Origin: Candidatus Saccharimonadota bacterium | Lineage (GTDB): Bacteria; Patescibacteriota; Saccharimonadia; Saccharimonadales; Saccharimonadaceae | Reading direction: 5' to 3' | DNA: 37,306 bases | Assembly (NCBI GenBank): GCA_017404515.1 | Contig: JAFRCG010000022.1 | Location: forward strand, 1 to 37,306 | Part shown: one piece after another, positions 2,576 to 20,939 of the stretch | How positions within the stretch are numbered: the first letter of the stretch is position 1 | Layout of the letters: every line of letters starts with the position of its first letter | Notes under the pieces: generated by a model | Seen by the model: the letters and a program-made list of their open reading frames with translations, nothing else | Databases searched by the model: none | Told to the model about the DNA's origin: nothing | Position numbers and translations under genes: made by a program

Positions 2576-3577
2576 ATGACTATCAAGTCTCATTCTCGCG
2601 GTATGTTTCTCGGCCTCGTTGTAGGTGATGTTCTTGGTGCCCCAGTCCAATTTGGAGTTAGTAGTGCTGCCATCCGTGAGCATTTAGACAGTCTCAGAGA
2701 ATATCACGATAATTGCGAACTCCCCAAAGGTGTTTACACAGATGATACTTCCATGGCGCTCTGTCTTGCTGATAGTCTGATAGAGAAAAAAGGCTACGAT
2801 TCTTATGACATTATGCAAAAATATTGCGACTGGGAAGACCATGGTTATCGTTCATATTTTGATTATGGTTTTGATGTCGGCACGCAAGTAATTCAATCTA
2901 GCATTGAATATTCCAAAAATAAAATTGTGCCAAAGACCAAAGAGCGCACCATATCTGCTGGAAATGGTTGCATCATGCGTCTTGCTCCTGCTATTATTGC
3001 CGCGGCAGAACATTCCACTTTGAAACAGACCGTCGAACTTGCCTGGATTTCTGGTAGAGAAACACATTATTCCGAAGTTGCGGAAATGGGAGTAGAAGTT
3101 TTTGCCAATTTACTTTATCGCGCACTTCACGCCGGTAGCGCCAAAAAATCTAAAATTATAGATCTCGAAAATCTCTATTTTACTTCTGATGAGCTCAAAG
3201 AAACTTGGCTAGATAATAACTGGCTGATTTCTGGTCGTGTCCATAGTGATGGTGAATGTCTGCGTGATCTCGGCGGCTATGTTATGGACGCTCTTACCAT
3301 CGCCATTTGGGCTTTTCTTGCTACGGATAATTTTGAAGATGGCATGTTAAAAGTGCTTTGCCTCGGTGGTGATACCGATACCAATTGTGCCATCTACGGA
3401 CAGCTTGCTGGTGCATTTTATGGAGTCGAGGCTATCCCCAAAAATTGGCAAAACGGCCTTGCTATCTCCAAAGAAGCTATCTTTGACTTAGTAGATCAAC
3501 TCTTAGCTTTAGACTCTTGCCCTATTTTAGCCACCCGTTTTGAAGAAGATTCTGAGTATTACAAACCTAGTTCATAA
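2576..3577 (+). CDS. ADP-ribosylglycohydrolase (DraG/ARH) family protein
   Basis: Protein of 333 residues, the usual size for the family. Diagnostic motifs are RGMFLGLVVGDVLGAP at the N-terminus, YTDDTSMALCLADSL (about 54-68, Mg-binding TDDT), GNGCIMRLAP (about 129-138) and GGDTDTNCAIYGQLAGAFYG (about 264-283, second metal-binding segment). Members remove ADP-ribose from proteins, nucleic acids or small molecules using two Mg ions. It is probably cytoplasmic. No ADP-ribosyltransferase partner is in the window, so the substrate is unknown. The start at 2576 has no SD. The gene follows the unusually long leader described above. Confidence 0.9.
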   Translation: MTIKSHSRGMFLGLVVGDVLGAPVQFGVSSAAIREHLDSLREYHDNCELPKGVYTDDTSMALCLADSLIEKKGYDSYDIMQKYCDWEDHGYRSYFDYGFDVGTQVIQSSIEYSKNKIVPKTKERTISAGNGCIMRLAPAIIAAAEHSTLKQTVELAWISGRETHYSEVAEMGVEVFANLLYRALHAGSAKKSKIIDLENLYFTSDELKETWLDNNWLISGRVHSDGECLRDLGGYVMDALTIAIWAFLATDNFEDGMLKVLCLGGDTDTNCAIYGQLAGAFYGVEAIPKNWQNGLAISKEAIFDLVDQLLALDSCPILATRFEEDSEYYKPSS

Positions 3578-5840: not shown

Positions 5841-6545
5841 ATGGAAATTCTAATTCTAACAATCCTCTTCCTACTTCTCCTAGAGACTTCTTTTTTGGTA
5901 ATCAAAAACATTCGTAAAATTTCCGCCAAATCCAGCCGTCGCAAAGTTTATATTGATACCTCTGCTTTGATTGACGGTCGCATTTTAGAAATTGCTCGCA
6001 CCGGTTTTATTGGCGACGATCTATACATCCCTCGTAGTGTCATTCGTGAACTTCAGCTTCTTGCTGATGGCAAGGATAAGGAAAAGCGTGAATCCGCCCG
6101 TCGTGGCATGGATACTGCCAGCGAGCTAGAAAGAGTGATTTATTGTAATACTTATATTTTACAAGATGATTTGGACCGCACACCAGTTGATGAGCGGCTG
6201 ATCACACTTGCCAAGGAAAATCATGGCCTTATCTGCACTAATGATTTTAACCTCAACAAAGTCGCCACTACGGAAAATATTGATGTCCTAAATGTTAATG
6301 ATTTGGCTTTGGCTGTGGCTAGCGATTACTACCCCGGAAAACACTTTACTGTCAAAATTACTCAAGAGGGCAGCAATAAAGGCCAAGGTGTAGGGCATAT
6401 CGAGCATGGCATTATGGTAGTGGTTGATAACGCCGCCAAAAATATCGGTACAGAAATAGAAGTAGAAACTATCAAATTTATCCAAAATTCTGCTGGGCGT
6501 ATGATTTTTGCTCGTCGTGCGTCGCACACTAGAAGGTCAAAGTAG
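5841..6545 (+). CDS. Membrane-anchored PIN-TRAM ribonuclease-like protein (YacL-type)
   Basis: Protein of 234 residues. One N-terminal membrane helix (about 2-22) is followed by a PIN domain (about 34-155) with the acidic residues expected for metal binding: YIDTSALIDGR, VIRELQ, DERLITLA and TNDFNLNKVA. A C-terminal TRAM domain (about 165-225; GKHFTVKITQEGSNKGQGVG, then a GTEIEVE segment) follows. The PIN-plus-TRAM order matches the B. subtilis YacL family, but YacL has several membrane helices and this protein has only one. The likely role is RNA cleavage at the membrane. The substrate is unknown. Confidence 0.85.
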   Translation: MEILILTILFLLLLETSFLVIKNIRKISAKSSRRKVYIDTSALIDGRILEIARTGFIGDDLYIPRSVIRELQLLADGKDKEKRESARRGMDTASELERVIYCNTYILQDDLDRTPVDERLITLAKENHGLICTNDFNLNKVATTENIDVLNVNDLALAVASDYYPGKHFTVKITQEGSNKGQGVGHIEHGIMVVVDNAAKNIGTEIEVETIKFIQNSAGRMIFARRASHTRRSK

Positions 6546-8462: not shown

Positions 8463-11400
8463 CTAAGAATTATCTCTTTGATTATCAAAGATTTCTTCAT
8501 AATTGTCGCCAACTCTATCAGCCGCATCCATGTTGTCAGCCCTCTGCTGGCGTCGTTCTTGATAACCAGCTTCTTGCATGATTTCATCCAGAGTCTCAGT
8601 TGAACTGCCACCGCTTGCATTTCCTGCACCACCTGTGCTATCAGCACCTCCGCTCGGTGCGCTGCCACTATTGCCAGAATTATGGACATTGATGTAACCT
8701 TCAGAAAGTTTGGCCAGCCCTTCAGCACGGGAGCCTTTGAGTGAGCTCCTGAGGCGAGGATCGGAAACGGCAGAATTAGCAACTTTCTGGATGCCGCTGA
8801 CATAATTGTTGATTCTACTCTGTTCCTCACTGGATAGTTTGCCCCACTCACTGGAGTTAGATTGAAGTTTCTTCATATTGTTTACGGCATTCATGATAGA
8901 GTTAAACTCGCCATCATCCATATTGGCAAATTGCTCTGGACGGTAAGAATCCACCTTTGGTGCTCTAGAGCCACCGGCCACAAAGTCATTGAAGTTGCCG
9001 GAGCTAGCTGTACCAGTGTTGGCTTTAGCCGCTTCGTATTGAGAGCGTGCATTGTTCTTGAAGTCTGCTGCATGCGCACCCAGCAAGTTGCTAGCCCAGG
9101 CTTGTCTTGCTTCGTTACTGATACTAGCAAAGTCAAGACCTTCCATCGCAGTGCCCATGGCAGAGCGTCCATCGTCGCCAATTTTATTAAGTGCATTCTG
9201 GATAGCACGGATCTTAGCGGAGTTATTGCCTCCAGAATCAGTCCTCATGAGATCGACCATGTCATTGGCAACCGCTGCATAGTTGCCAGTAGTAAATGCG
9301 GCACTACCTTCAATTTTAGCCTGTTCAGTAGCTACTTGCTCGGTATCAAGCTGAGCATCTTGCTCTGCAATTGCAGACTCCATATAGCCTTCAGTATTCA
9401 AGCGGTCTTCCCTTAGCTGATCAGAACGGTCTTTTAGATACGCCGCACGGCCTCTTGCCATAGAGCGAGAAGCGGCCCTTTGCATGCCAGGCACTCTGCT
9501 AAAGATTGATTTACCGCGAGCAATTTTATCCATTCTCTTACCCATGGCAGTTGCTTCACCACGGCTATTCACACCAGCCGCAGCACGAAGCTGGGCGTCC
9601 TTGACTGCCTGAGAATTTGCCACTGCTCCGCCAGCACGCCTGCCAAGGTTGGATCCCATTGCAGAAATCTTTCCGCCAATATTTCCCATTGCCGAGAATG
9701 CACCCTGGAGTAGCTTTGGTACAAAGAAGAATGGTACCACAGTCAGTAATGCAGCTAATAGATGCATAAAGAAATTATTGCTAGAAGAGGTTAGAATTTT
9801 GGAGGCTAATGCGCTGCCGCCAATTAATGCGCCACAAATAGGGTAGAGCAGCAAAAGCCCTTCCAGCATTTTCTTCCATTTGTCAAAGATCGGTTTGGTG
9901 TTTGGCAGCATATAACAGACAAAGGCTACCGGCGCGACTACTACTAATATAATTACACCTGCCTGGCGTACGCCTAGTAAGACAAACATAAATGCTACGC
10001 TGACTAGAATAGTGATAAGGCCGAGCAGCAGTGGAACAATTAGTGCTGGCACCCACATCTCAGCCGTAGCAATTGCCCCACCAATTCCAGCCGCACCAAC
10101 CAAGCCAGTAATAGCAGTAGTAAGAGCTGACTGCCCAGTTGATACAGCTGAGCCATTGATTTGAACATTGCTAAAGATTCCTTCTAGACCAGCACCCAAG
10201 ATATTTGAAGCATCTACCAGTAGCTGACAGATAAAGTATGAAATATTTATCAATATCGCCGTCACTATTAGCTTCGGCAAGATTCGTTTAATGCCATAAT
10301 TGTCTATGCCAATACCTGTTACCTGCGAGAATATTACAAATAGGAACAGTATTACGAAGAGGACATTTGCAATACCTTGGAACACTTGCCACCCCTGGAA
10401 TGTACCGCTGCTAGTATTGAAGGCACTAACATTAACCTGGAGGAATGGCTCAATAATACTATCATAAATATTCTGAACTGTAGCATGTAAGAATTTAATT
10501 ACTGGGCAGAGGATCCAACCAAGTGCATCGGCACCATTGAAACACTCTTTTAGATCCAAGCCACCACTACCACCTGGGTTGGTCGGATCGTCGTCTTCGC
10601 TGGTACAGGCACTAATATAACCTTCATACAGAGTTTTCCCATTCATAGAATCTAGTAGAGCATCATAGGTTGTGGTATTGACGCCAGTCCAGCCATTAGA
10701 ATCATCGGTAGTATAAAGCGTGCCATTGAAATCGGCCTTTTTCTTGACCCACATATCACTGGAATTGCCATCAATAACAAAGGAAACTTTTTTGTAGCCA
10801 CTTTCAGCTTTACAAGAAAAATCACCATAGTTGGCCAAATAATATTCGTTTAGTTCACGCTTTTGTAGATTTGTAAGCGTATAAGCGTTAGTTCCAAGGA
10901 CATGACCCCAAGCACCAGCAGTGCCACTTGGGTTTGTCAGTTCCCACTTTGATGCAATCCCACCACCAGGAATATCTTTTGTCTCTTCTGAGACTTCATC
11001 AAATAAATAATATAACGACGACCCACCATCTGGGCTTATGATTTCAACCTGATGTCCAATAGCGTTATTCATTATATTAGAAATCATAGACGAAAGACCA
11101 CTTTGAATATTTCCAATTGGGTCACCTACAGCAAAAGTAAAACTATCTTGTGAATTGAGATTCATCGAGATGAATTCTATTGATATATAGCCATTTTCAC
11201 TCGTTAATATGAAGAAAGGTGCCCTATTTCCTGATAGATTTCCTGGATAAGCTTTGTCATCGGAAATTTTTCCATCCACAGCAGTAACGCAAACTTTTTC
11301 AGATACTTTTATGTCGTCCGGAAAAGCATCGGTATCTCTATTGTGGAATCTCGCAGAATAACAATGTTCTGTGGCGGAATTAGGTACTGCAGTGTAGCCT

Positions 11401-11801
11401 AGTTTTTGTAAAATTGGAACTTTTTTGGTGGAATCATCACTTACAGCAACCTCGCCAAGCCCCAGCCCAGCAAAGCCACCTTTTCCCAAGAATAAATCTT
11501 TACAGGTAATATTATCGCTCTGTGTATAATTGCCATCTCCGCCCAAAGTTCCATTTGGCAAGTTAACCTCTACACCATCACCGTTGAAGATACTAGTGCC
11601 AGCAGTTTTTCCATATGAAAAATCAGCAATATTAATCTCTGGCTTCAGAAATCCACTTTCATAGCAACGCTTAAGATCGCCGACCATGGCACGCTCCAAA
11701 GTCTCGCTACTAATAGCGGAAACCGGGAATATTATGCCAAAGCTAGCGATAAGCACTGCTAACATGGCAGAATAAAGACAGATTTTTTTCACCCTTTTCA
11801 T
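8463..11801 (-). CDS. TrbL/VirB6-like polytopic membrane protein with large ectodomain
   Basis: Protein of 1112 residues. A signal peptide or first membrane helix (about 5-30) is followed by an ectodomain of about 380 residues, several cysteines and a short acidic-proline linker. Then come five to seven hydrophobic helices (about 430-690; segments such as VLFVILFLFVIFSQV and VILVVVAPVAFVCYM), as in the TrbL/VirB6 family of type IV secretion inner-membrane components. The last 400 residues are polar, Ala/Ser/Arg/Asp-rich and probably cytoplasmic. It overlaps the upstream gene by ATGA and has a GGAGGGAG ribosome site. No VirB4 or VirD4 ATPase is in the window. A role in secretion, DNA uptake or host contact is inferred. 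Confidence 0.7.
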   Translation of the reverse strand: MKRVKKICLYSAMLAVLIASFGIIFPVSAISSETLERAMVGDLKRCYESGFLKPEINIADFSYGKTAGTSIFNGDGVEVNLPNGTLGGDGNYTQSDNITCKDLFLGKGGFAGLGLGEVAVSDDSTKKVPILQKLGYTAVPNSATEHCYSARFHNRDTDAFPDDIKVSEKVCVTAVDGKISDDKAYPGNLSGNRAPFFILTSENGYISIEFISMNLNSQDSFTFAVGDPIGNIQSGLSSMISNIMNNAIGHQVEIISPDGGSSLYYLFDEVSEETKDIPGGGIASKWELTNPSGTAGAWGHVLGTNAYTLTNLQKRELNEYYLANYGDFSCKAESGYKKVSFVIDGNSSDMWVKKKADFNGTLYTTDDSNGWTGVNTTTYDALLDSMNGKTLYEGYISACTSEDDDPTNPGGSGGLDLKECFNGADALGWILCPVIKFLHATVQNIYDSIIEPFLQVNVSAFNTSSGTFQGWQVFQGIANVLFVILFLFVIFSQVTGIGIDNYGIKRILPKLIVTAILINISYFICQLLVDASNILGAGLEGIFSNVQINGSAVSTGQSALTTAITGLVGAAGIGGAIATAEMWVPALIVPLLLGLITILVSVAFMFVLLGVRQAGVIILVVVAPVAFVCYMLPNTKPIFDKWKKMLEGLLLLYPICGALIGGSALASKILTSSSNNFFMHLLAALLTVVPFFFVPKLLQGAFSAMGNIGGKISAMGSNLGRRAGGAVANSQAVKDAQLRAAAGVNSRGEATAMGKRMDKIARGKSIFSRVPGMQRAASRSMARGRAAYLKDRSDQLREDRLNTEGYMESAIAEQDAQLDTEQVATEQAKIEGSAAFTTGNYAAVANDMVDLMRTDSGGNNSAKIRAIQNALNKIGDDGRSAMGTAMEGLDFASISNEARQAWASNLLGAHAADFKNNARSQYEAAKANTGTASSGNFNDFVAGGSRAPKVDSYRPEQFANMDDGEFNSIMNAVNNMKKLQSNSSEWGKLSSEEQSRINNYVSGIQKVANSAVSDPRLRSSLKGSRAEGLAKLSEGYINVHNSGNSGSAPSGGADSTGGAGNASGGSSTETLDEIMQEAGYQERRQQRADNMDAADRVGDNYEEIFDNQRDNS

Positions 11802-13225
11802 TGCTCACTCCCTCCATTTGCGCTATTAGAAGTATTATCAGCAGGTTGGTTTTCTGTATTGCCAGTATCATTGCTAGTGCTATCATCGGAGTTCTTGCTA
11901 GTATTTGGAGCAACGGCATTATTCGTATTCTCAGCATTATCGGAGTCAGTTGTGTTCGTAGTATCATTATTTTCATCTGCGTTTGCCCCATTTTCTTGCT
12001 CTACATCTTGGGTTGGGTAAGTAATAGGATCTGGAGTTGCCCAAGCTTCTGGCAGATAGAAACAACCGCGCAAGACATCATTTGTAGCAATACTGATTAT
12101 GTTATTTTTAATAGCAGTAGTAGTTTCATAATTATTTTCTGCTGGAATTTCCGGAATTTGTTTGAGCTGGCCAGTACACTTAGTATCAATAGTGCCATCT
12201 TTGACGCAGTTGTTTTCCTTGAAATAATTATATCTTTCCGCCATAGCCTTGAGATATTTAGTGGAAACCTCTGCATAGCGTGCCCCCGCGCTAGAACTTT
12301 CTGCAAGGTTAGCATAAGATTCATCAATGTAAGCATTAACATCGTCTATGGACTCTGCCTCTGCAACTTTATTAAGAATAGTTGGAAGCGCCGGCTCATT
12401 GAGGCTAGCAAAAGCATTTAGGAAATTAATGCCGTCCGTCTGAGCGTAGATTAACGATTCTACTCTAGGGTAAGAAACAAAATCAATGTCCACAGATTTT
12501 TCCAAGAAATCTGAGTAATACGACATGGCGGTGTCAAAGAAAGTGCCAGAATTAATCAATTGGTACTGTGGAGAATTAGCAGTAATAGGTGTGGTAGCTT
12601 TGGTATAATTTGCTTCATCCGCCTCGGTAATTTCGTTGCGTCCAAAAGAATATTCAAGTTGGTAAGTTTCCTTATCGTCATAGGAACTTGTCAAGATTTG
12701 TTCAGAATCGTCCACTCCAAACAACACATAATTAGCATATCTATTGAACGCTTGTTGATAATCCAAATTTGAAGCTATAGTTCCGCCGCCCTGCTTGTTG
12801 CCCCCACCTTTTGGCATCAGTACTACTGCCAAAATAATCACCAGCACTCCCAATATACCGCCAGCTATCACTGCAATTTTTATCAGTACGCCTTTGTTTA
12901 TTGGTTTGTGCTCTTTCTTCACCGGGCCAGAAGATGGCAAGATAATATCACCATTAGGCTCTACCTTATCAAACTTATGCTTAGAAAACACCGAAGATCC
13001 TGTAGCAGATTGGTTTTTGCTATTCAGACTGTCCATCGTCCTAGAAACATTTGCTCCAGTGGATAAGTTCGCGGCGCCAAGCTGGCCCGCCATCGTAGAA
13101 TTACTCGCCGCACCGTTTCCTCCTGCAGCCCCAAAAACTGGCTGCGTGCCAGCAGGTTGCCCATTTTGACCTTCTTGCCCACCAGCTGGGTTATTTCCCA
13201 GAGGGGATGTTTGTTTTGGATCCAT
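11798..13225 (-). CDS. Single-pass surface protein, operon partner of the TrbL/VirB6-like gene
   Basis: Protein of 475 residues. A Gly/Asn/Ala-rich disordered cytoplasmic N-terminus (about 1-105) is followed by one membrane helix (about 108-134; IKIAVIAGGILGVLVIILAV), an extracellular domain (about 145-400) with a few cysteines, and an Asn/Asp/Thr/Ser-rich low-complexity tail (about 400-475). I do not recognise the domain. The 4-nt ATGA overlap with the TrbL/VirB6-like gene implies coupled synthesis and probably a common complex. The start at 13225 (MDPKQTS) is chosen from the -10 at 13236-13241; upstream in-frame ATGs overlap the promoter. Confidence 0.65.
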   Translation of the reverse strand: MDPKQTSPLGNNPAGGQEGQNGQPAGTQPVFGAAGGNGAASNSTMAGQLGAANLSTGANVSRTMDSLNSKNQSATGSSVFSKHKFDKVEPNGDIILPSSGPVKKEHKPINKGVLIKIAVIAGGILGVLVIILAVVLMPKGGGNKQGGGTIASNLDYQQAFNRYANYVLFGVDDSEQILTSSYDDKETYQLEYSFGRNEITEADEANYTKATTPITANSPQYQLINSGTFFDTAMSYYSDFLEKSVDIDFVSYPRVESLIYAQTDGINFLNAFASLNEPALPTILNKVAEAESIDDVNAYIDESYANLAESSSAGARYAEVSTKYLKAMAERYNYFKENNCVKDGTIDTKCTGQLKQIPEIPAENNYETTTAIKNNIISIATNDVLRGCFYLPEAWATPDPITYPTQDVEQENGANADENNDTTNTTDSDNAENTNNAVAPNTSKNSDDSTSNDTGNTENQPADNTSNSANGGSEQ

Positions 13226-13235
13226 GTATAACCGC

Positions 13236-13241
13236 ATTATA
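13236..13241 (-). promoter_or_regulatory. Extended -10 of the secretion/surface operon
   Basis: The minus strand reads TATGCTATAAT, ending 10 nt before the ATG at 13225. It predicts a leader of about 3-4 nt. Confidence 0.6.
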
Positions 13242-13286
13242 GCATAAACATTTTGATTTAACAAGACCTTTCTGTCTTAAACCACC

Positions 13287-13390: not shown

Positions 13391-14710
13391 TTAGCGTAAA
13401 GATTTGCGGCTAGCAATATAGTAACCAGCTACAGTAACGATGCTACCAGCACCAATCACACCGCCAATGATGGCAGCAGGACCAGTAGAAGGCATTGTAG
13501 AAGGTTTTTTGTCGTCAGGAGTTGGGTTTGGATTTGGGTTAGAACAACCTTCAGTTTTCTTTACCATTACAAAGGCATTATCCTGAAGAGTAGTTTTACC
13601 TACACCAACCTGGCCCCAGTTAACAAGTTTGTTAGTTCCACAAACCATGCTTTTGTCAACAACTTTGGCACGGAAGCGGATGTAAGCTTCACCGTTGGCA
13701 TCATAACCACCGATATTTACACCAGTAGTGGTGATAGTATCGTCGTTATTTTTGATACCATTTGGGTTAGTGCTGTTGTAGATCTTAGTAGAACCAGCAA
13801 CATATTCCATGTTGTTTGGTAGAACATCTTTTACCATCACATTGTCAACATGCTCACCAGTAGTGTTTTTGTAGTAAATCTGGTATTCTACAGTATCGCC
13901 AATATTGGCATCAACAGAATCTTTGTAAGATTTGTCAGTGTCGCCAATCTTGCGTACAGTTTTCTCTACAGTGTAAGAGTTGTTAATATAAACAGCTTTT
14001 ACACGGATAGTAGTATAAGAAGCATATTGGAAACAACCAGGTATGTTACCATCTAGCTTATCATAACCAATGAGCACACCTTTGCTGGTGATAATATCAT
14101 CAGAAAGTTTAGCGCCACCATTGGCAGCTTTACCAATACTGTTGTTCTCATAGTGAGCAGAACCCTCAATATAATCTAGATAGAAGGTCTCACCATTTTT
14201 ACTCTTGAACACGACATCATCATACACACGAGTAGGATCAGCGTTAGAAGAGTCAATAGAACCTTGAACAGATAGGGAAGTGCCAGCAGTAGTTGGCAAA
14301 GTAAAGTGAAGGGTAGTATTCTTTGCAACGGTTTTAGTGCCGTTAGGGTTGTTGTTGTGGGCGTAAAGACGAATGATGTATTCTTTGCCGTCCTCAACGG
14401 TGATTTCGTTAGCATTCCAAGTTTGTTTGCCGTCGTTGATTCCGGTATTCTCACGAGCGCCAACGAAGTTACGCTCATCACCGCCAATCACAGGGTTGTT
14501 GGTGAAAGAGTTAAAGGTAATTTTGTTACCCATAGATGGGCTAACTTCACACTTAGTGTAGTCAGCGTTACAGTTTTTGAGGGTATAAGTTTGGCGGCCA
14601 CCCTCTTTGCCGCTATTATCACCCCAAGCCAAAGCGGCTGGAGCAAGATTTACTCCCACAATCGAAGCAGCAGCCAAGACAGCGGAAGCAGATTTAATAA
14701 ACTTGTTCAT
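13391..14710 (-). CDS. DUF11-repeat surface protein with sortase-like C-terminal signal
   Basis: Protein of 439 residues. A signal peptide (about 1-28, ending near APAALA) leads to an extracellular region with two beta-rich modules. The second (about 250-370) is a clear DUF11/isopeptide-type repeat: KTVRKIGDTDKSYKDSV, then NIGDTVEYQIYYKNTT and VKDVLPNNMEYVAGST. The C-terminus is a spacer rich in Pro/Asn/Asp, then MPSTGPA, a hydrophobic helix and a basic tail RKSLR, which is the layout of an LPXTG-type sorting signal. It is probably wall-anchored or membrane-anchored. No sortase is in the window. The start at 14710 is chosen for the AAAGGAG site just upstream. Confidence 0.8.
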   Translation of the reverse strand: MNKFIKSASAVLAAASIVGVNLAPAALAWGDNSGKEGGRQTYTLKNCNADYTKCEVSPSMGNKITFNSFTNNPVIGGDERNFVGARENTGINDGKQTWNANEITVEDGKEYIIRLYAHNNNPNGTKTVAKNTTLHFTLPTTAGTSLSVQGSIDSSNADPTRVYDDVVFKSKNGETFYLDYIEGSAHYENNSIGKAANGGAKLSDDIITSKGVLIGYDKLDGNIPGCFQYASYTTIRVKAVYINNSYTVEKTVRKIGDTDKSYKDSVDANIGDTVEYQIYYKNTTGEHVDNVMVKDVLPNNMEYVAGSTKIYNSTNPNGIKNNDDTITTTGVNIGGYDANGEAYIRFRAKVVDKSMVCGTNKLVNWGQVGVGKTTLQDNAFVMVKKTEGCSNPNPNPTPDDKKPSTMPSTGPAAIIGGVIGAGSIVTVAGYYIASRKSLR

Positions 14711-14728
14711 ATAATCTCCTTTCAAAAG

Positions 14729-14755: not shown

Positions 14756-14874
14756 GATAAATTTTAATAATTATTTTTGCTAGCCGAATTTTTAATCTTC
14801 GTCTTGACCATTGTCTCGATTGTGTAATACAAACGAGTAAAATCGAATCATCTCAGATGCAAATTTTGGTAAAT

Positions 14875-14899
14875 CCTGGCGGCTGGTAAGGCCGCCAGG
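14875..14899 (-). terminator. Strong hairpin downstream of the 14918-16516 gene
   Basis: CCTGGCGGC, a 7-nt loop, then GCCGCCAGG: a perfect 9-bp GC-rich stem about 19 nt after the stop codon. The T-run after it is poor on the minus strand, so it may act as an mRNA 3'-end stabiliser rather than a full intrinsic terminator. Confidence 0.55.
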
Positions 14900-14917
14900 A
14901 AGTAAGGTGCTTGTGTG

Positions 14918-16516
14918 CTAGTCGTCTACCGGCGGAGCTCCGCCCATTTCGCCATTATGGCTTCCTGTATCCCCATCGTTATTGGACGGGTGTTCCTCTA
15001 TGGGCTTTGTCTCCGGCGGTGTTCCACCATCCGTATTGTCTGCCGGCGGGCCCGGGTCATATGATTCGCCAGTGCCCGGGTTTTCCGAATTGCCCGGCTG
15101 GTATTGACTATCCGGGACATTGGGTGAGGGAGAGTTTCCAAGGTCAGGTTTCTGCTCACCCGGTCCAGAATCGTCATTTTTGCCTCCACCAATCGGGGCA
15201 TTGCCCCTTTCAGCAGGGTCTTCCGAAGGATTTTTAGTCTCCTTCTTTTTATCCGGCGGTGTCGGCTTCGGGTCCGGGGGGGTCGGGTTTGGCGTCGGTC
15301 CACCACCGCCTCCAGGCGTCGGTCCGGTGGTAACCTTCGTTACCCTCTGTGTCACCTTAGTTGTCTTATTGGTGACACTAGTCTTCTTCACCGAAGATTT
15401 CTTCACCGTGGAGGTGTTCTGGATTTCTCCAGGACTCCTGTCAGCTAAGTTAGCTCCGATGAAGAATGCCCTCTTGCCACCTTTTAAGTAGTAAGAGAAA
15501 GTCAACCAGTAATCAAGGTCCGGTTCATCCTCTTTGGTTTCAGTAGCCACTCTCAGGTGGTTATAATCGAAACCTACAAGATGATACCTTCTTGACACAT
15601 GGTATCTTCCAGCTCCTAACTCCAGCGGCTCCATGAAGCTTATCAGTTGGCAGACCGCCATTATATGTGATTGATTCACATATAAGTGGTCCACATCCTT
15701 GATCGCCATACCAGTGTTGCCTTCTTCGTCTCTCAATCTGATCATGATGCCAGCCCCGTTACCGGTTCTGGCCGCACGATTCTCCGAGAGGTAAGTCCGA
15801 AGTCCCGGGCAGTTTTCTGCCAGGGTGCCGGATTCTCCTACCTTGAGATCCTGCATAAAATTCAGCCAGGCCTCAAAGGCTACGGGATTCTCTAACCAAG
15901 TCTGGAACAGCTCCAACTTTACCTGCTCCTGGTTGGATAAATCAACCGTGGAGCCAAAGGTCAATTTCAGCAACTTCTTAATGTCTTCTTCCGTCAACTG
16001 GTCGAAGATACAATCCAGTGCATCGTTGATTTCTTTCTTGCTGAGCCCGGCCCAGACGGCACTCTTCTGACGGTTAAAATCGTTTTCCGTCATAGAATGC
16101 CAAGAGAATGGGATCTTGTAGTTTCCATCCGGCCACTGCTCGTAGCCAAACTGCGAATTATAATCCGCAATTATCTTATTTGCAGTGCCAGTAGTTAATA
16201 CCGGAAATGCGTTGTTGAAATCCTCTACATCTTCGGGTGTTACATCCTCAATGTAGGCTTCCTCAACTTCGCCGTTGGCGATAGCTTCAGGGACTATCAC
16301 CATTGCGTCCCCTCCGGTTTCAACCTCGGTTTCATCATTGCCCGCTTCTGCAACTTCCGTCGCCAGCTCATCGCTGGTTGCATTTTCAGTTTCAGTCGTT
16401 TTTGCCACCTCATCGGTGGTGTGATGCTTATTGTAGTATTTGACCCCGCCCGCTACGCAGACGGCAACCAATATTATTGATAGCACCACTATTAACGCAT
16501 TCTGCAATTTTGTCAT
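14918..16516 (-). CDS. Membrane-anchored protein with proline/glycine/aspartate-rich tail, unknown
   Basis: Protein of 532 residues, not recognised. An N-terminal membrane anchor (about 6-26) precedes an acidic Thr/Glu linker (about 33-85) and a globular domain (about 90-365). A Lys/Thr/Val-rich stalk (about 370-402) leads to a long Pro/Gly/Asp/Asn tail ending in PPVDD. The layout suggests an exported protein with a flexible surface tail. The start at 16516 (MTKLQN) places the membrane helix at the N-terminus; a longer start has no support. It follows the gene at 16534 by 17 nt, so the two form an operon. The DNA looks GC-richer than neighbouring genes by eye (not computed). Confidence 0.65.
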   Translation of the reverse strand: MTKLQNALIVVLSIILVAVCVAGGVKYYNKHHTTDEVAKTTETENATSDELATEVAEAGNDETEVETGGDAMVIVPEAIANGEVEEAYIEDVTPEDVEDFNNAFPVLTTGTANKIIADYNSQFGYEQWPDGNYKIPFSWHSMTENDFNRQKSAVWAGLSKKEINDALDCIFDQLTEEDIKKLLKLTFGSTVDLSNQEQVKLELFQTWLENPVAFEAWLNFMQDLKVGESGTLAENCPGLRTYLSENRAARTGNGAGIMIRLRDEEGNTGMAIKDVDHLYVNQSHIMAVCQLISFMEPLELGAGRYHVSRRYHLVGFDYNHLRVATETKEDEPDLDYWLTFSYYLKGGKRAFFIGANLADRSPGEIQNTSTVKKSSVKKTSVTNKTTKVTQRVTKVTTGPTPGGGGGPTPNPTPPDPKPTPPDKKKETKNPSEDPAERGNAPIGGGKNDDSGPGEQKPDLGNSPSPNVPDSQYQPGNSENPGTGESYDPGPPADNTDGGTPPETKPIEEHPSNNDGDTGSHNGEMGGAPPVDD

Positions 16517-16533
16517 AACAGGTGCCCCCTTTC

Positions 16534-17346
16534 TCAAATCAGGAGGACGATTCCTATGCCGATAGTTACGCACGCTGCAAGAGCGGCAATCACCGCCCAG
16601 CGAATCAGCGTACCATCAAGCAGCATTTTTTCGTCCTCATCCTCGTCCTCATCGTCATCTTCCTCGATCCTTTTGTTTTCCAAGTCGTTTTCTTTTGTAC
16701 ACCATTTCAGATCGAGAGCTTCACCTTCTGCTTCTGTCTCCTCAGCTTCGGCTTTCGCCTCCACCTTGGAAACTTCCGCGGCTTCTGCAATAATTTCCGC
16801 AGCTTTCTCCTCTGTCTTTGCTTCCGCTTCAACTTCGGTTTCCGGCTCTTTGGCTTCAGCTGCCTCAGCTTTTGGCTCCTTGGGCTTCTCTTCCGGCTCG
16901 GCCTTTTTTGATCCACGATTGTATTCGTTGATCAATCTTGCCTTTGCCATTCCTACTACCCATGCGGCAATGGGGAAGAGCAGCAGCCACAGCTGCCAGA
17001 ATTTTGGTCCTGACTTATCCCAACCCCTGGCAATCGCAAATACAAGTGCAATCCCGTAAATCAGAATAAGCGTATTCCAGCTTGCCTCACGCTTTTTTCC
17101 TTCCTGGTTGATGGCCTGAAGGCCAATCAGCAAGATGGAAATCAGCACAAAGGTTGCCGGATACATTAAGAACCAGACTGACAATCCAAGCAACAGGGAA
17201 TTGATCCCGGCAAACATCCAAATGGCTTTTTTGCCGATACCTTCCTCTCTGCCACCTTCATCAATCGCTGCAGAATTGGCATAGATGCCAGATATCAACC
17301 CAGCAATTGCGCCAACAATGAAACTAAAAATTACAGTCTTACTCAT
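16534..17346 (-). CDS. Polytopic membrane protein with acidic Ala/Glu/Lys-rich linker, unknown
   Basis: Protein of 270 residues, not recognised. About five hydrophobic segments fill residues 3-135. A long charged Ala/Glu/Lys segment follows (about 140-235), then a strongly acidic run of Asp/Glu near 230-240 and a final membrane helix (about 249-268). It is the first gene of the operon with the 532-residue protein. It has an ideal ribosome site (AGGAGGT, 7 nt spacing) behind a 200-nt leader with three hairpins, and a consensus promoter. It is probably a membrane platform for its partner (inference from operon position only). Confidence 0.65.
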   Translation of the reverse strand: MSKTVIFSFIVGAIAGLISGIYANSAAIDEGGREEGIGKKAIWMFAGINSLLLGLSVWFLMYPATFVLISILLIGLQAINQEGKKREASWNTLILIYGIALVFAIARGWDKSGPKFWQLWLLLFPIAAWVVGMAKARLINEYNRGSKKAEPEEKPKEPKAEAAEAKEPETEVEAEAKTEEKAAEIIAEAAEVSKVEAKAEAEETEAEGEALDLKWCTKENDLENKRIEEDDDEDEDEDEKMLLDGTLIRWAVIAALAACVTIGIGIVLLI

Positions 17347-17546
17347 TGACTTTACCTCCTATTTTGATATCTATTTTCTGAAACTGAAATTCTATATAAA
17401 AACAGGAGGCTACCAACCTCCTGGAAAAGAGATTGGAACCTTGCTTTGCAAGGTCAGCACACACCAGATACATTTGTATCTGGGATGATTCGATTTTAAT
17501 GGCCGTCTAGATGCAGGTGGTGCTTAACAACTCTCCCACATAGACT
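17347..17546 (-). promoter_or_regulatory. Structured 200-nt leader with attenuator-like hairpin
   Basis: Read on the minus strand, the leader contains three perfect hairpins. The first is 17464-17483 (CCAGATAC, 4-nt loop). The second is 17438-17454 (ACCTTGC, 3-nt loop). The third is 17403-17423 (CAGGAGG, 7-nt loop, CCTCCTG) followed by five T, which is the form of an intrinsic terminator. The CCTCCT arm of the third could also pair with the gene's SD AGGAGG at 17355-17360. This arrangement is typical of transcription attenuators and riboswitches. No known class is recognised. Confidence 0.5.
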
Positions 17547-17552
17547 ACTTAC

Positions 17553-17581
17553 ATTGTATCACACTTTGCACAAAAAGTCAA
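17553..17581 (-). promoter_or_regulatory. Consensus promoter of the 17346-14918 operon
   Basis: Minus strand: -35 TTGACT, 17-bp spacer, -10 TACAAT preceded by GTGTGA. The element is nearly identical to those at 18829-18857 and 25920-25948. The predicted start is near 17546. Confidence 0.75.
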
Positions 17582-17639
17582 TAGTATCAACATATTTTGG
17601 TTATGTATAAAACAGGGGTGATAATAAACATAAGGTGTT

Positions 17640-17664
17640 ATTTTAGGCCAAAAATCCTTGATTT
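17640..17664 (-). promoter_or_regulatory. Possible upstream tandem promoter
   Basis: Minus strand: the 15-mer AAATCAAGGATTTTT, 4 nt, then TAAAAT. The same 15-mer at the same distance from TATAAT forms the tRNA promoter at 19509-19533. It may give a second, longer leader for the operon starting at 17346. The 15-mer is also part of an inverted repeat (CTTGATTTT, TACTT, AAAATCAAG). Confidence 0.35.
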
Positions 17665-17727
17665 TTACTTAAAATCAAGTCTAGTATGGCATAACAGGGG
17701 TACGGATAGCCAGCAAAAGATCAGCAT

Positions 17728-17758
17728 AAAAAAGCCCCCGCAGATTAACTGCAGGGGC
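17728..17758 (-). terminator. Intrinsic terminator of the 17863-18756 gene
   Basis: On the minus strand, a 10-bp stem (one mismatch) with loop TTAAT is followed by six T. It lies about 105 nt after the stop codon. Confidence 0.85.
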
Positions 17759-17776
17759 CAATACCAATTGTGGCAC

Positions 17777-17842
17777 GCCAGGGGCGTGTTTTGCGTGCTG
17801 TTTCTCTCTTTGATTTGAAATCTGGAACCACGCCCCTTTGGC
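17777..17842 (-). other. Long inverted repeat in the 3' untranslated region
   Basis: GCCAGGGGCGTG at 17777-17788 pairs with CACGCCCCTTTGGC at 17829-17842 (2-nt bulge), around a loop of about 40 nt. It lies between the stop at 17863 and the terminator at 17758. It may protect the mRNA 3' end. No gene is seen in the 516 bases between 17346 and 17863. Together with the leader, promoters and terminator this accounts for most of that gap. Confidence 0.45.
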
Positions 17843-17862
17843 TGTGCCCGAAAGGAGGTGGT

Positions 17863-18756
17863 TTACTTCTTGTTGCCGATAAAGAGTCTCTGCCTCAGAG
17901 CCTCTTTATCTCCGGAAAATTGCTCGATGAAGTCCTTGACCTCGTCAATTCTGACGCGGTCTCCGATTTCGCCATTCTCGATCCGGCGATAAACCTTTGT
18001 GAATGACGAGTTAAATGTTGCCCCGATCGCCTTATACTGGGCGATGGAAGCCTCGGCCTCGTCTTTATCTTCGTACTCGGTCCCGTCCAACTTGCTGGCG
18101 AAAAGCACGATATAAGGTATCATGCTTGCCTCAACGGCGGCCACTGTCTTCTTCGCCGACTTCAGTAAATCTGAATTAGCCCGGATGGCATTTTCCAGAT
18201 CCTCAGAGATGAACTCCTTTATAAGGGAGTTGTCTGCAGCCATTGCCTTCTTAATCCAGGCCCTCAGATCTCCGGACAGGCCAAAGCCTCTGTCGAAGTC
18301 GTATGCCTGATTGCCCAACTGCTCATAAAAGTCCATTGATTCCATTTTTCTGTTCATATTCTCATTCTCCTCTTCTGTGTTCTTTGCAACATTTTTGCGG
18401 ACAATCTTGCCCGCGGGTTCCGGCTTGTCGGCTTCTTTGTCGGTATCTGGTCCAGTAGACCCGTCGTCATCACCGCCGATGTCAGAAGCGATGCCTTTCA
18501 TCGATTCGTTGATGATGGCATCAACCGCTGCCGCGGCTGCCGCTGCGTCGTCGGCCTTCTTGTCATCTGCCTTTTTAGCATCATCCGCCTTTCCAGCAGT
18601 GTCATCGGGTTTCTTTGCAGCATCAGCCTTGTCTGCGGGTGCAGGCTCGGGCTTGGGTGCCTTTGCCTTCTTGTTATCTTTCTTATCATCGGGTTCGTCT
18701 TTGCCAGCAGGTTTTGCCGCTCCAAGAGCAGTCAAAATTTTTCCATCAAGCTTCAT
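17863..18756 (-). CDS. Ala/Lys/Asp-rich protein with helical C-terminal domain, unknown
   Basis: Protein of 297 residues, not recognised. The first 130 residues are low-complexity Ala/Lys/Asp/Pro. A predicted helical domain (about 135-297) follows, starting near MDFYEQLGNQAYDFDRG and ending RLFIGNKK. There is no signal peptide or membrane helix, so it is probably cytoplasmic. The start at 18756 is set by an AAGGAGG ribosome site 7 nt upstream. It has a consensus promoter, a 65-nt leader and a strong terminator, so it is likely well expressed. It shares its promoter type with the 17346-14918 operon and the gene at 25849, so co-regulation is inferred. The DNA looks GC-richer than the flanking genes by eye. 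Confidence 0.65.
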   Translation of the reverse strand: MKLDGKILTALGAAKPAGKDEPDDKKDNKKAKAPKPEPAPADKADAAKKPDDTAGKADDAKKADDKKADDAAAAAAAVDAIINESMKGIASDIGGDDDGSTGPDTDKEADKPEPAGKIVRKNVAKNTEEENENMNRKMESMDFYEQLGNQAYDFDRGFGLSGDLRAWIKKAMAADNSLIKEFISEDLENAIRANSDLLKSAKKTVAAVEASMIPYIVLFASKLDGTEYEDKDEAEASIAQYKAIGATFNSSFTKVYRRIENGEIGDRVRIDEVKDFIEQFSGDKEALRQRLFIGNKK

Positions 18757-18828
18757 ATTGGATCCTCCTTCCAAAACAAATTTTTAAGTTACTTGCCCCA
18801 GCTAGGGCGCAATTGGTATTGTGATTAC

Positions 18829-19844: not shown

Positions 19845-20939
19845 ATGAGTCAAAAATTTAATGTAATTGATTTATTTGCCGGTGTGGGCGGATTGAGCTT
19901 TGGATTTGAAGAAATGAAGGAGTTCAATATCGTAGCTGCCAATGAAATTTTGCCAGATATTGCTAAATCTTACGAGCTAAATCATCCAAAGACTAAGATG
20001 CTAACTTGCGATATTGCAGACATAACAGAGGACATGCTAAAAGCAGCAACTGGCGGCCAAAAAATAGACTTGGTGGTGGGTGGCCCGCCATGCCAATCTT
20101 ACTCTACCCTAGGCAAAAGGCAAATGGACGAGCGCGCCAATATGTTTGTTCAGTATAAGAGAATTCTAGAGATGCTTCGGCCACGCGCCTTTGTCTTTGA
20201 AAATGTTTCCGGTCTCTTGAGCATGCAGGGTGGGAAGCTTTTTCCCAAGATTAGAAATGAGTTTGAAGAACTTGGCTACACCCTAAAATACCAGTTACTA
20301 AATGCCGCAGATTACGGTGTCCCCCAAGAGCGCAAGCGTATTGTCCTAGTTGGTTTTATGGGGGAAAACACCTTTGAATATCCCAAGAAAACACATGGTA
20401 GCGGCGCCGGATTAAAACCTTATGTTACTCTAGAAGATGCTATCGGCGATTTGCCCAAAATAAAAAGTGGGGAGTCAAACAATAATTACGCCAAAGACCC
20501 AGACAATAGTTTTCTCAAATTTGTAAGGAGAAATGGAAAAACGATATTAACCGAGCATTCTGCCCCCAAAAATAACCAGCGCCTAATTGCATTAATGGAA
20601 GCACTTGGCGACGGCCAAGACAAAAATGATTTGCCAGAGGAGCTGAGGCCAACCAGTGGCTATGGCAACACTTACGCTAAATTATGGTGGAAGCGGCCGG
20701 CAACTACCATCACTAGGAATTTTTCTTGCCCATCATCTTCTAGGTGTATCCATCCTAGAGATTCCAGAGCGTTGAGCAATCGTGAGGGTGCAAGATTGCA
20801 AAGTTTCCCAGATGATTACAAATTTTATGGTTCTCAGACCAGCATAAAACTAGGCATAGGCAATGCGGTGCCGTGCTTGCTTTCTAGGGCTATTGCAAAA
20901 CAGATGCTAAAAGCATTGCAAGAGAGTATCAAGTTGTAG
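19845..20939 (+). CDS. DNA cytosine-5 methyltransferase
   Basis: Protein of 364 residues with the standard C5-MTase order: motif I DLFAGVGGLSFGF, motif IV GGPPCQSYSTLGKR (catalytic Cys about 83), motif VI FVFENVSGLLS, motif VIII QERKRIVLVGF, a short target-recognition region (about 185-290), motif IX REGARLQSFPDDY and motif X GIGNAVP. It methylates cytosine at C5 in a specific site using SAM. The site cannot be read from the sequence. An AAAAGG stretch precedes the ATG. The putative endonuclease follows after 32 nt, making a type II restriction-modification pair. Confidence 0.95.
   Translation: MSQKFNVIDLFAGVGGLSFGFEEMKEFNIVAANEILPDIAKSYELNHPKTKMLTCDIADITEDMLKAATGGQKIDLVVGGPPCQSYSTLGKRQMDERANMFVQYKRILEMLRPRAFVFENVSGLLSMQGGKLFPKIRNEFEELGYTLKYQLLNAADYGVPQERKRIVLVGFMGENTFEYPKKTHGSGAGLKPYVTLEDAIGDLPKIKSGESNNNYAKDPDNSFLKFVRRNGKTILTEHSAPKNNQRLIALMEALGDGQDKNDLPEELRPTSGYGNTYAKLWWKRPATTITRNFSCPSSSRCIHPRDSRALSNREGARLQSFPDDYKFYGSQTSIKLGIGNAVPCLLSRAIAKQMLKALQESIKL

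Follow-up and report, generated by a model that had tools for sequence, protein, structure and literature searches.

The locus raises the question of what the 200-nt leader at 17546-17347 (minus strand) does for the membrane-protein gene behind it. The initial annotation had proposed a self-contained, riboswitch-like switch whose 5′ part would be the sensor. Our results support a different layout: the conserved 5′ part of the leader (M, H1 and P below) is instead complementary to the 3′ untranslated region (UTR) at the far end of its own message, some 2.5 kb on. We hold with high confidence that this 5′–3′ UTR pairing is kept by selection, and give about even weight to the whole account including its mechanism, in which the leader forms the first half of a two-part RNA element that acts in cis within a fast-evolving surface-protein message and would control its translation by folding back.

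The cassette and its transcript

Leader and cassette lie on the minus strand of the window (the whole 37,306-nt stretch of DNA analysed), which is contig 15 in the 763-kb genome of a Candidatus Saccharibacteria. Saccharibacteria are tiny symbionts living on other bacteria, and the relatives that carry the motif and have a name are rumen and gut Saccharibacteria MAGs. A strong intrinsic terminator (GCCCCTGCAGTTAATCTGCGGGGGCTTTTTT; 17726-17755, minus strand) separates the upstream gene (18774..17863) from the leader promoter, and the leader is thus the start of its own transcription unit. Transcription would begin at about 17546, and the leader runs to the ATG at 17346. A promoter-like site at equal distance was present in 93 of the 97 loci screened, although it served as a selection criterion and the remaining loci were those that failed the pattern filter. 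The unit contains the following features.

17553-17581, minus: promoter TTGACT-17-TACAAT, near-consensus, recognised from sequence
16534-17346, minus: cassette ORF1, a 270-aa membrane protein with a weak, below-cut-off TctB-like match
14918-16573, minus: cassette ORF2, 551 aa, membrane-anchored, with a Pro/Gly-rich C-terminus and no family; stop codon 14920-14918
13391-14725, minus: ORF3, a 444-aa DUF11-repeat surface protein with a signal peptide

Many relatives have one cassette ORF of about 600 aa in place of two, and the largest cassette ORF encodes about 390-880 aa in all loci except one. An AlphaFold model of ORF2 (mean pLDDT 64.7) had no PDB neighbour. No promoter of its own was detected for ORF3, so it is probably transcribed at the main locus by read-through from the cassette promoter. 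The DUF11 protein is present in 61 of 122 genera searched, half of those in the order, and the host genome has a second DUF11 gene copy, 78% identical to 13391-14725, at a contig end (C27:2-1276). At 8463-13264, beyond the DUF11 gene, a protein of 488 aa and a TrbL/VirB6-like membrane protein of 1112 aa are encoded, a hint that the locus may serve the cell surface or secretion. Elsewhere the window encodes an ADP-ribosylglycohydrolase (2576-3577), a PIN-TRAM protein (5841-6545) and a C5 cytosine methylase (19845-20939).

Pairing between the leader and the 3′ UTR

A BLAST search of the leader against the host genome returned a 27-nt inverted copy of its motif directly after ORF2, and relatives show equal pairing. 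We built two covariance models, R1 for the 5′ part (46 positions) and R2 for the 3′ part (57 positions). Each matches 155 of the 174 genomes of the genus, including 104 of 110 high-quality ones, generally at one locus per genome, in fixed order and with 0.5-3 kb between the parts. R1 had no match outside this genus (392 genomes, 156 genera; more than 300 genomes of the order beyond the genus), nor had R2 (197 genomes, 122 genera), and the viral contigs and plasmids searched gave no match to the element. These distributions suggest either that the element is younger than the DUF11 gene behind it or that it is too diverged elsewhere for R1 and R2.

The anatomy was derived from 92 non-redundant loci, with orientation set by the promoter and by TTAAMAA criteria. 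Part 1 is the leader; part 2 starts where the last cassette ORF has its stop codon and ends upstream of the DUF11 gene. The order along the transcript is P1 stem, M, H1, P, T platform, Shine–Dalgarno (SD) sequence, one or two ORFs, P′, H2, M′, piece 2b and the SD of ORF3. In the window, the elements outside the platform are as follows.

17505-17546, minus: P1, 5′-terminal stem-loop AGTCT...AGAC, from folding; its stem is variable and present in relatives
17472-17497, minus: M, conserved strand AAAATCGAATCATCCCAGATACAAAT, partner of M′ (model R1; covariation with M′)
17464-17483, minus: H1, local hairpin CCAGATAC-AAAT-GTATCTGG, with compensatory stem changes
17456-17463, minus: P, TGTGTGCT, 5′ strand of the second long-range helix (swap tests)
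14912-14919, minus: P′, AGCACACA, partner of P, overlapping the ORF2 stop codon (14920-14918)
14874-14900, minus: H2, GC-rich hairpin TCCTGGCGGC-CTTACCA-GCCGCCAGGA, whose loop can kiss the T loop (UACCA:UGGUA)
14839-14864, minus: M′, ATTTGCATCTGAGATGATTCGATTTT, partner of M (model R2; covariation)
14780-14811, minus: piece 2b, ATGGTCAAGACGAAGATTAAAAATTCGGCTAG, conserved in the ORF3 UTR

Two long-range helices join the parts: M:M′, 24-26 bp and covarying, and P:P′, 8-17 bp, variable in sequence and always complementary. In the window, helices of about 26 and 8 bp span about 2.5 kb of coding sequence. In nearly every genome, M′ and P′ are complementary to the leader's M and P, which allows the message to form a closed loop.

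The strand M has the consensus AAYCGAAUCAUCYCAG across the 92 loci. Cells of the M:M′ alignment were paired in 96.2% of cases, compared with 92.6% for shuffled partners and 20-49% for slid ones. Changes on both sides affected 33 cells in six columns, against 11 in shuffles (0/500). Among these double changes, G-C to A-U (column 5) and C-G to U-A (column 3) are typical. A locus's own partner paired better than that of its nearest relative in 39 comparisons, equally well in 11 and worse in one. The permutation tests ignore ancestry, for which the nearest-relative swaps are a partial control.

The hairpin H1 is likewise preserved, with 737 Watson–Crick, 15 G.U and 5 A.C stem pairs. In addition, both its arm and its loop pair with the sequence just before M′ (own 5.60, swapped 3.89; 0/20000), as in CAAAU:AUUUG, CGAAA:UUUCG, CUAAU:AUUAG and CAAGC:GCUUG. 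It follows that formation of H1, at about -10 kcal/mol, excludes the extended M:M′ helix, at about -34 kcal/mol, and vice versa.

Judged by sequence comparison, the strongest evidence for pairing is the P:P′ helix. The sequence of P is free to vary among genomes (TGTGTGCT, TCCAATACGAACT, TTGCCTATATAT, TTTTGTGTATTGCGCTT and others), and it is complementary to P′ within each one. Lenient Smith–Waterman scoring blurred this signal, which was resolved by scoring contiguous helices: the score was 23.5 for own partners and 16.0 for swapped ones, and the own partner beat that of the nearest relative in 78 of 92 loci (p=1e-12). Cofolding gave -24.2 kcal/mol for own parts and -14.1 kcal/mol for swapped parts, in a calculation that ignores proteins, ribosomes and kissing loops. 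The position of P′ is also constrained: it starts a median of 1.5 nt past the stop codon, and within -6 to +10 nt of it in 60 of the 68 cases with a clear helix.

Nearly all of the 92 loci have the GC-rich H2 hairpin. Second copies of the whole unit occur in four genomes (L179 in G031, L181 in G118, L174 in G002 and L180 in G179), where they adjoin ndk/rplL and their product is a different Pro-rich surface protein. In the G031 and G118 copies, both long-range helices are kept and an intrinsic terminator lies directly after M′, while the DUF11 gene and piece 2b are absent. Since these copies end right after M′, part 2 is the 3′ UTR of the cassette mRNA.

Several variants of the layout were also seen. 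One genome (G150, L182:4342-8198) has two tandem units, both complete with promoter, leader, ORF(s) and 3′ part, and a DUF11 gene after the second. In another (G191, L173:2034-2573), M and M′ are only about 508 nt apart around a 133-aa ORF1-like frame, which may be a deletion, an assembly error or a minimal unit. Piece 2b at 14780-14811 (GACGAAAATTAAMAATTCGGCTAGC) resembles the linker before M (GACGACCATTAAMAAYCG), and pairing between its GGCTAG and the TAGTC of the 5′ end is possible; a divergent clade pairs AUGGACC in piece 2b with GGUCCAU of part 1. The clade of the window has an extra hairpin, ACTCG...CGAGACA, between M′ and piece 2b (14812-14838), which is longer in L041/L095 and L044.

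The hairpin platform upstream of the Shine–Dalgarno sequence

Between P and the start codon lies a set of competing hairpins.

17438-17454, minus: accessory hairpin ACCTTGC-AAA-GCAAGGT, from sequence and folding; not general in the genus
17427-17436, minus: segment 1 (anti-T), CCAATCTCTT, from constrained folding
17403-17423, minus: T hairpin CAGGAGG-TTGGTAG-CCTCCTG, comprising segment 2 (CAGGAGGTTGG, 17423-17413) and segment 3 (CCTCCTG, 17409-17403, the anti-SD)
17398-17402, minus: U-run (T5), whose partner in the predicted off state is CAAAAT upstream of the SD
17355-17360, minus: segment 4, the ORF1 Shine–Dalgarno sequence AGGAGG

Much of what the initial annotation described here is borne out. 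It had counted three perfect hairpins in the leader, and these lie at 17483-17464 (H1), 17454-17438 and 17423-17403; the last is followed by the T-run it reported (T5, 17402-17398), and the CCTCCT arm is indeed complementary to the SD (17360-17355), 43 nt downstream. The leader as a whole folds at -68.0 kcal/mol, compared with -43.7 ± 4.6 kcal/mol for 200 dinucleotide shuffles (z -5.3, 0/200). Constrained folding yields three competing helices: segments 1+2 (anti-T), segments 2+3 (T), and segment 3 plus the U-run with CAAAATAGGAGG, the last being a 12-nt stem that sequesters the SD. The combined anti-T and SD-sequestered state is at -68.9 kcal/mol at equilibrium, against -56.7 kcal/mol with T forced, and the isolated leader is therefore predicted to be off. 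Predicted SD accessibility is near zero in the window (0.01), versus 0.33 in shuffled leaders.

That these hairpins are mutually exclusive, as had been claimed, is a conserved trait of the leaders: a T-like hairpin (GGRGG-loop-CCYYC) is present in 52 of 92 leaders and in only 23 of 1840 shuffled ones (1.25%), and 48 of the 52 have a partner upstream (anti-T) whose pairing is better than that of control segments. The proposed terminator/anti-SD switch stands only in its second half. By inspection, the CCTCC arm is predicted to sequester the SD in about 36 of the 92 leaders, whereas a U-run follows T in only 7 of 52 and, in the window, is itself paired in the SD stem. With the hairpin conserved and the U-run not, the structure is better described as a translational platform than as a conserved terminator. 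The platform is weak or absent in genomes with short leaders. In the window, the SD is about 95-140 nt downstream of M and P and has its own partner inside the leader.

Possible regulation by a closed message

To our knowledge, few bacterial 5′–3′ UTR pairings are known, and the well-studied ones that we found are single short contacts or small toxin mRNAs. Pre-rRNA processing stalks, in which flanking sequences pair over 1.5-3 kb, are comparable in scale, but here a protein-coding ORF is enclosed, together with an SD platform and a stop-codon helix. By analogy, the closest worked-out mechanism is that of the aapA3 and hok messages, in which metastable SD-sequestering hairpins act during transcription and a 5′–3′ long-distance interaction locks the full message (PMC6733600). 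As in hok/Sok and aapA/IsoA, local 5′ and SD-sequestering hairpins are followed by long-distance pairing with the end of the message, here detected by covariation and swap tests. The local 5′ hairpin also appears to exclude the long-distance pairing, since H1 and the extended M:M′ helix share a strand and both show compensatory change. The differences are equally clear: the message is about 2-2.6 kb and encodes a membrane or surface protein of about 600 aa instead of a small hydrophobic toxin, the second helix sits on the stop codon, and M:M′ lies upstream of the SD without pairing with it. Promoter-like antisense sites in the leader and 3′ UTR were no commoner than in shuffles, and none was conserved. 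With neither a small toxin nor an antisense promoter, membership of the type I toxin–antitoxin systems is ruled out.

In the monocistronic icaR message of Staphylococcus aureus, the 3′ UTR also pairs with its own 5′ UTR, through one 7-nt UCCCCUG motif and the SD, which can block initiation and recruit RNase III to the duplex so created (PMC3868564). Here, in contrast, there are two helices (24-26 and 8-17 bp) upstream of the SD, found genus-wide and accompanied by a bistable leader; the 3′ UTR does not pair directly with the SD, whose partner is in the leader, and icaR-type membership is ruled out. RNase III of B. subtilis commonly uses long-range duplexes within one transcript (PMC11780869). 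These too join distant segments of one mRNA, although they are scattered single sites rather than one recurrent, covarying architecture.

The best reading, which by analogy with these systems we put at about an even chance, is fold-back control of translation on the message of a roughly 600-aa surface protein. H1 and the SD-sequestering hairpin would form first on the nascent leader and hold back initiation. Once the 3′ UTR has been transcribed, M′ would displace H1, and P:P′ would close beside the ribosome-binding region. Because P′ begins at the stop codon, we infer that terminating ribosomes keep P:P′ open; ribosomes completing the ORF would pull it apart, and the lock would set only under light ribosome traffic. 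Once locked, the duplex would be a plausible RNase III substrate. As a net outcome, the surface protein would be made under autoregulation, in low amounts or in pulses, and the transcript might in addition be segmented from the downstream DUF11 gene.

The sign of regulation is not decided by sequence alone. We favour the closed form as the off state, with roughly even confidence, over the opposite arrangement, which we consider distinctly less likely. There, the isolated leader would be off, in keeping with its predicted near-zero SD accessibility, and pairing with the 3′ UTR, together with a kiss between the T and H2 loops, would stabilise T and free the SD, such that only complete messages are translated. 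By inspection, T loops UGGUAG/UGGUAA match H2 loops CUUACCA/CUACCA/UUACCA in the window, L044, L045, L095 and L098; however, this kissing is confined to these five related genomes, and the precedents hok, aapA and icaR all lock their messages and none licenses them.

It is also possible, though improbable, that M:M′ serves chiefly as an RNase III stalk, at which the cassette and DUF11 messages are cut apart and so acquire separate lifetimes. A duplex of 24-26 bp, an RNase III gene in the host genome, the GC-rich H2 ahead of M′, the apparent lack of an ORF3 promoter and the B. subtilis precedent are all consistent with such processing. However, the second-locus copies keep both helices where there is no downstream gene to separate, and a simple stalk explains neither the position of P′ on the stop codon nor the invariant sequence of M.

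A metabolite riboswitch or transcription attenuator lying wholly within the 200-nt leader, as first suggested by the mutually exclusive hairpins and the U5 after T, is very unlikely given the scarcity of U-runs, the complementarity of the conserved part to the 3′ UTR, and downstream genes for surface proteins rather than metabolic ones. The initial statement that no known class fits holds, in that the leader has no Rfam match even at permissive thresholds: at the gathering threshold the window gives tRNAs only, and at E<=5 the region 17200-17900 gives chance-level matches only, most of them to the upstream gene's GC terminator. These searches covered group I and II introns, and an intron reading is rejected since no Rfam covariance model matched. 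Our survey, which covered the open-access literature, found no paper on structured RNAs of Saccharibacteria.

Several observations favour an RNA acting on the sense strand. Non-Watson–Crick pairs in H2, read on that strand, comprise 64 G.U and 8 A.C (35 and 1 when two pairs flank), and 11 H2 hairpins have C(UUCG)G loops. Clean internal wobbles in P:P′ number 11 G.U and 4 A.C, compared with 39 and 49 in swapped controls, and the long cassette ORF reads from the promoter in 92 of 92 loci. The M:M′ helix, with 59 G.U and 64 A.C cells at three fixed columns, of which column 13 alone is explained (by H1), is uninformative on this point. Least probable of all is that M and M′ are DNA-level inverted repeats at the ends of an invertible or mobile cassette: they are imperfect inverted repeats around variable genes, with strand-symmetric mismatches and with second and tandem copies of the unit, but P/P′ are out of register relative to M/M′, H2 has its G.U excess on the sense strand, and the opposite orientation, which MAG consensus could hide in a minority, was never seen in the 92 loci, so that an invertible cassette is rejected.

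Fold-back control remains our preferred reading. We propose, more tentatively, that these loci form a genus-wide family of kilobase-scale closed-loop messages in which the stop-codon helix would sense translation state through terminating ribosomes. Although the enclosed protein evolves fast, 155 of the 174 genomes in the genus keep one architecture of two long helices with fixed stop-codon geometry. Confirmation of the family would make it a naturally occurring system in which to study closed-loop bacterial mRNAs, and would offer a way into the control of a variable surface protein in Saccharibacteria.
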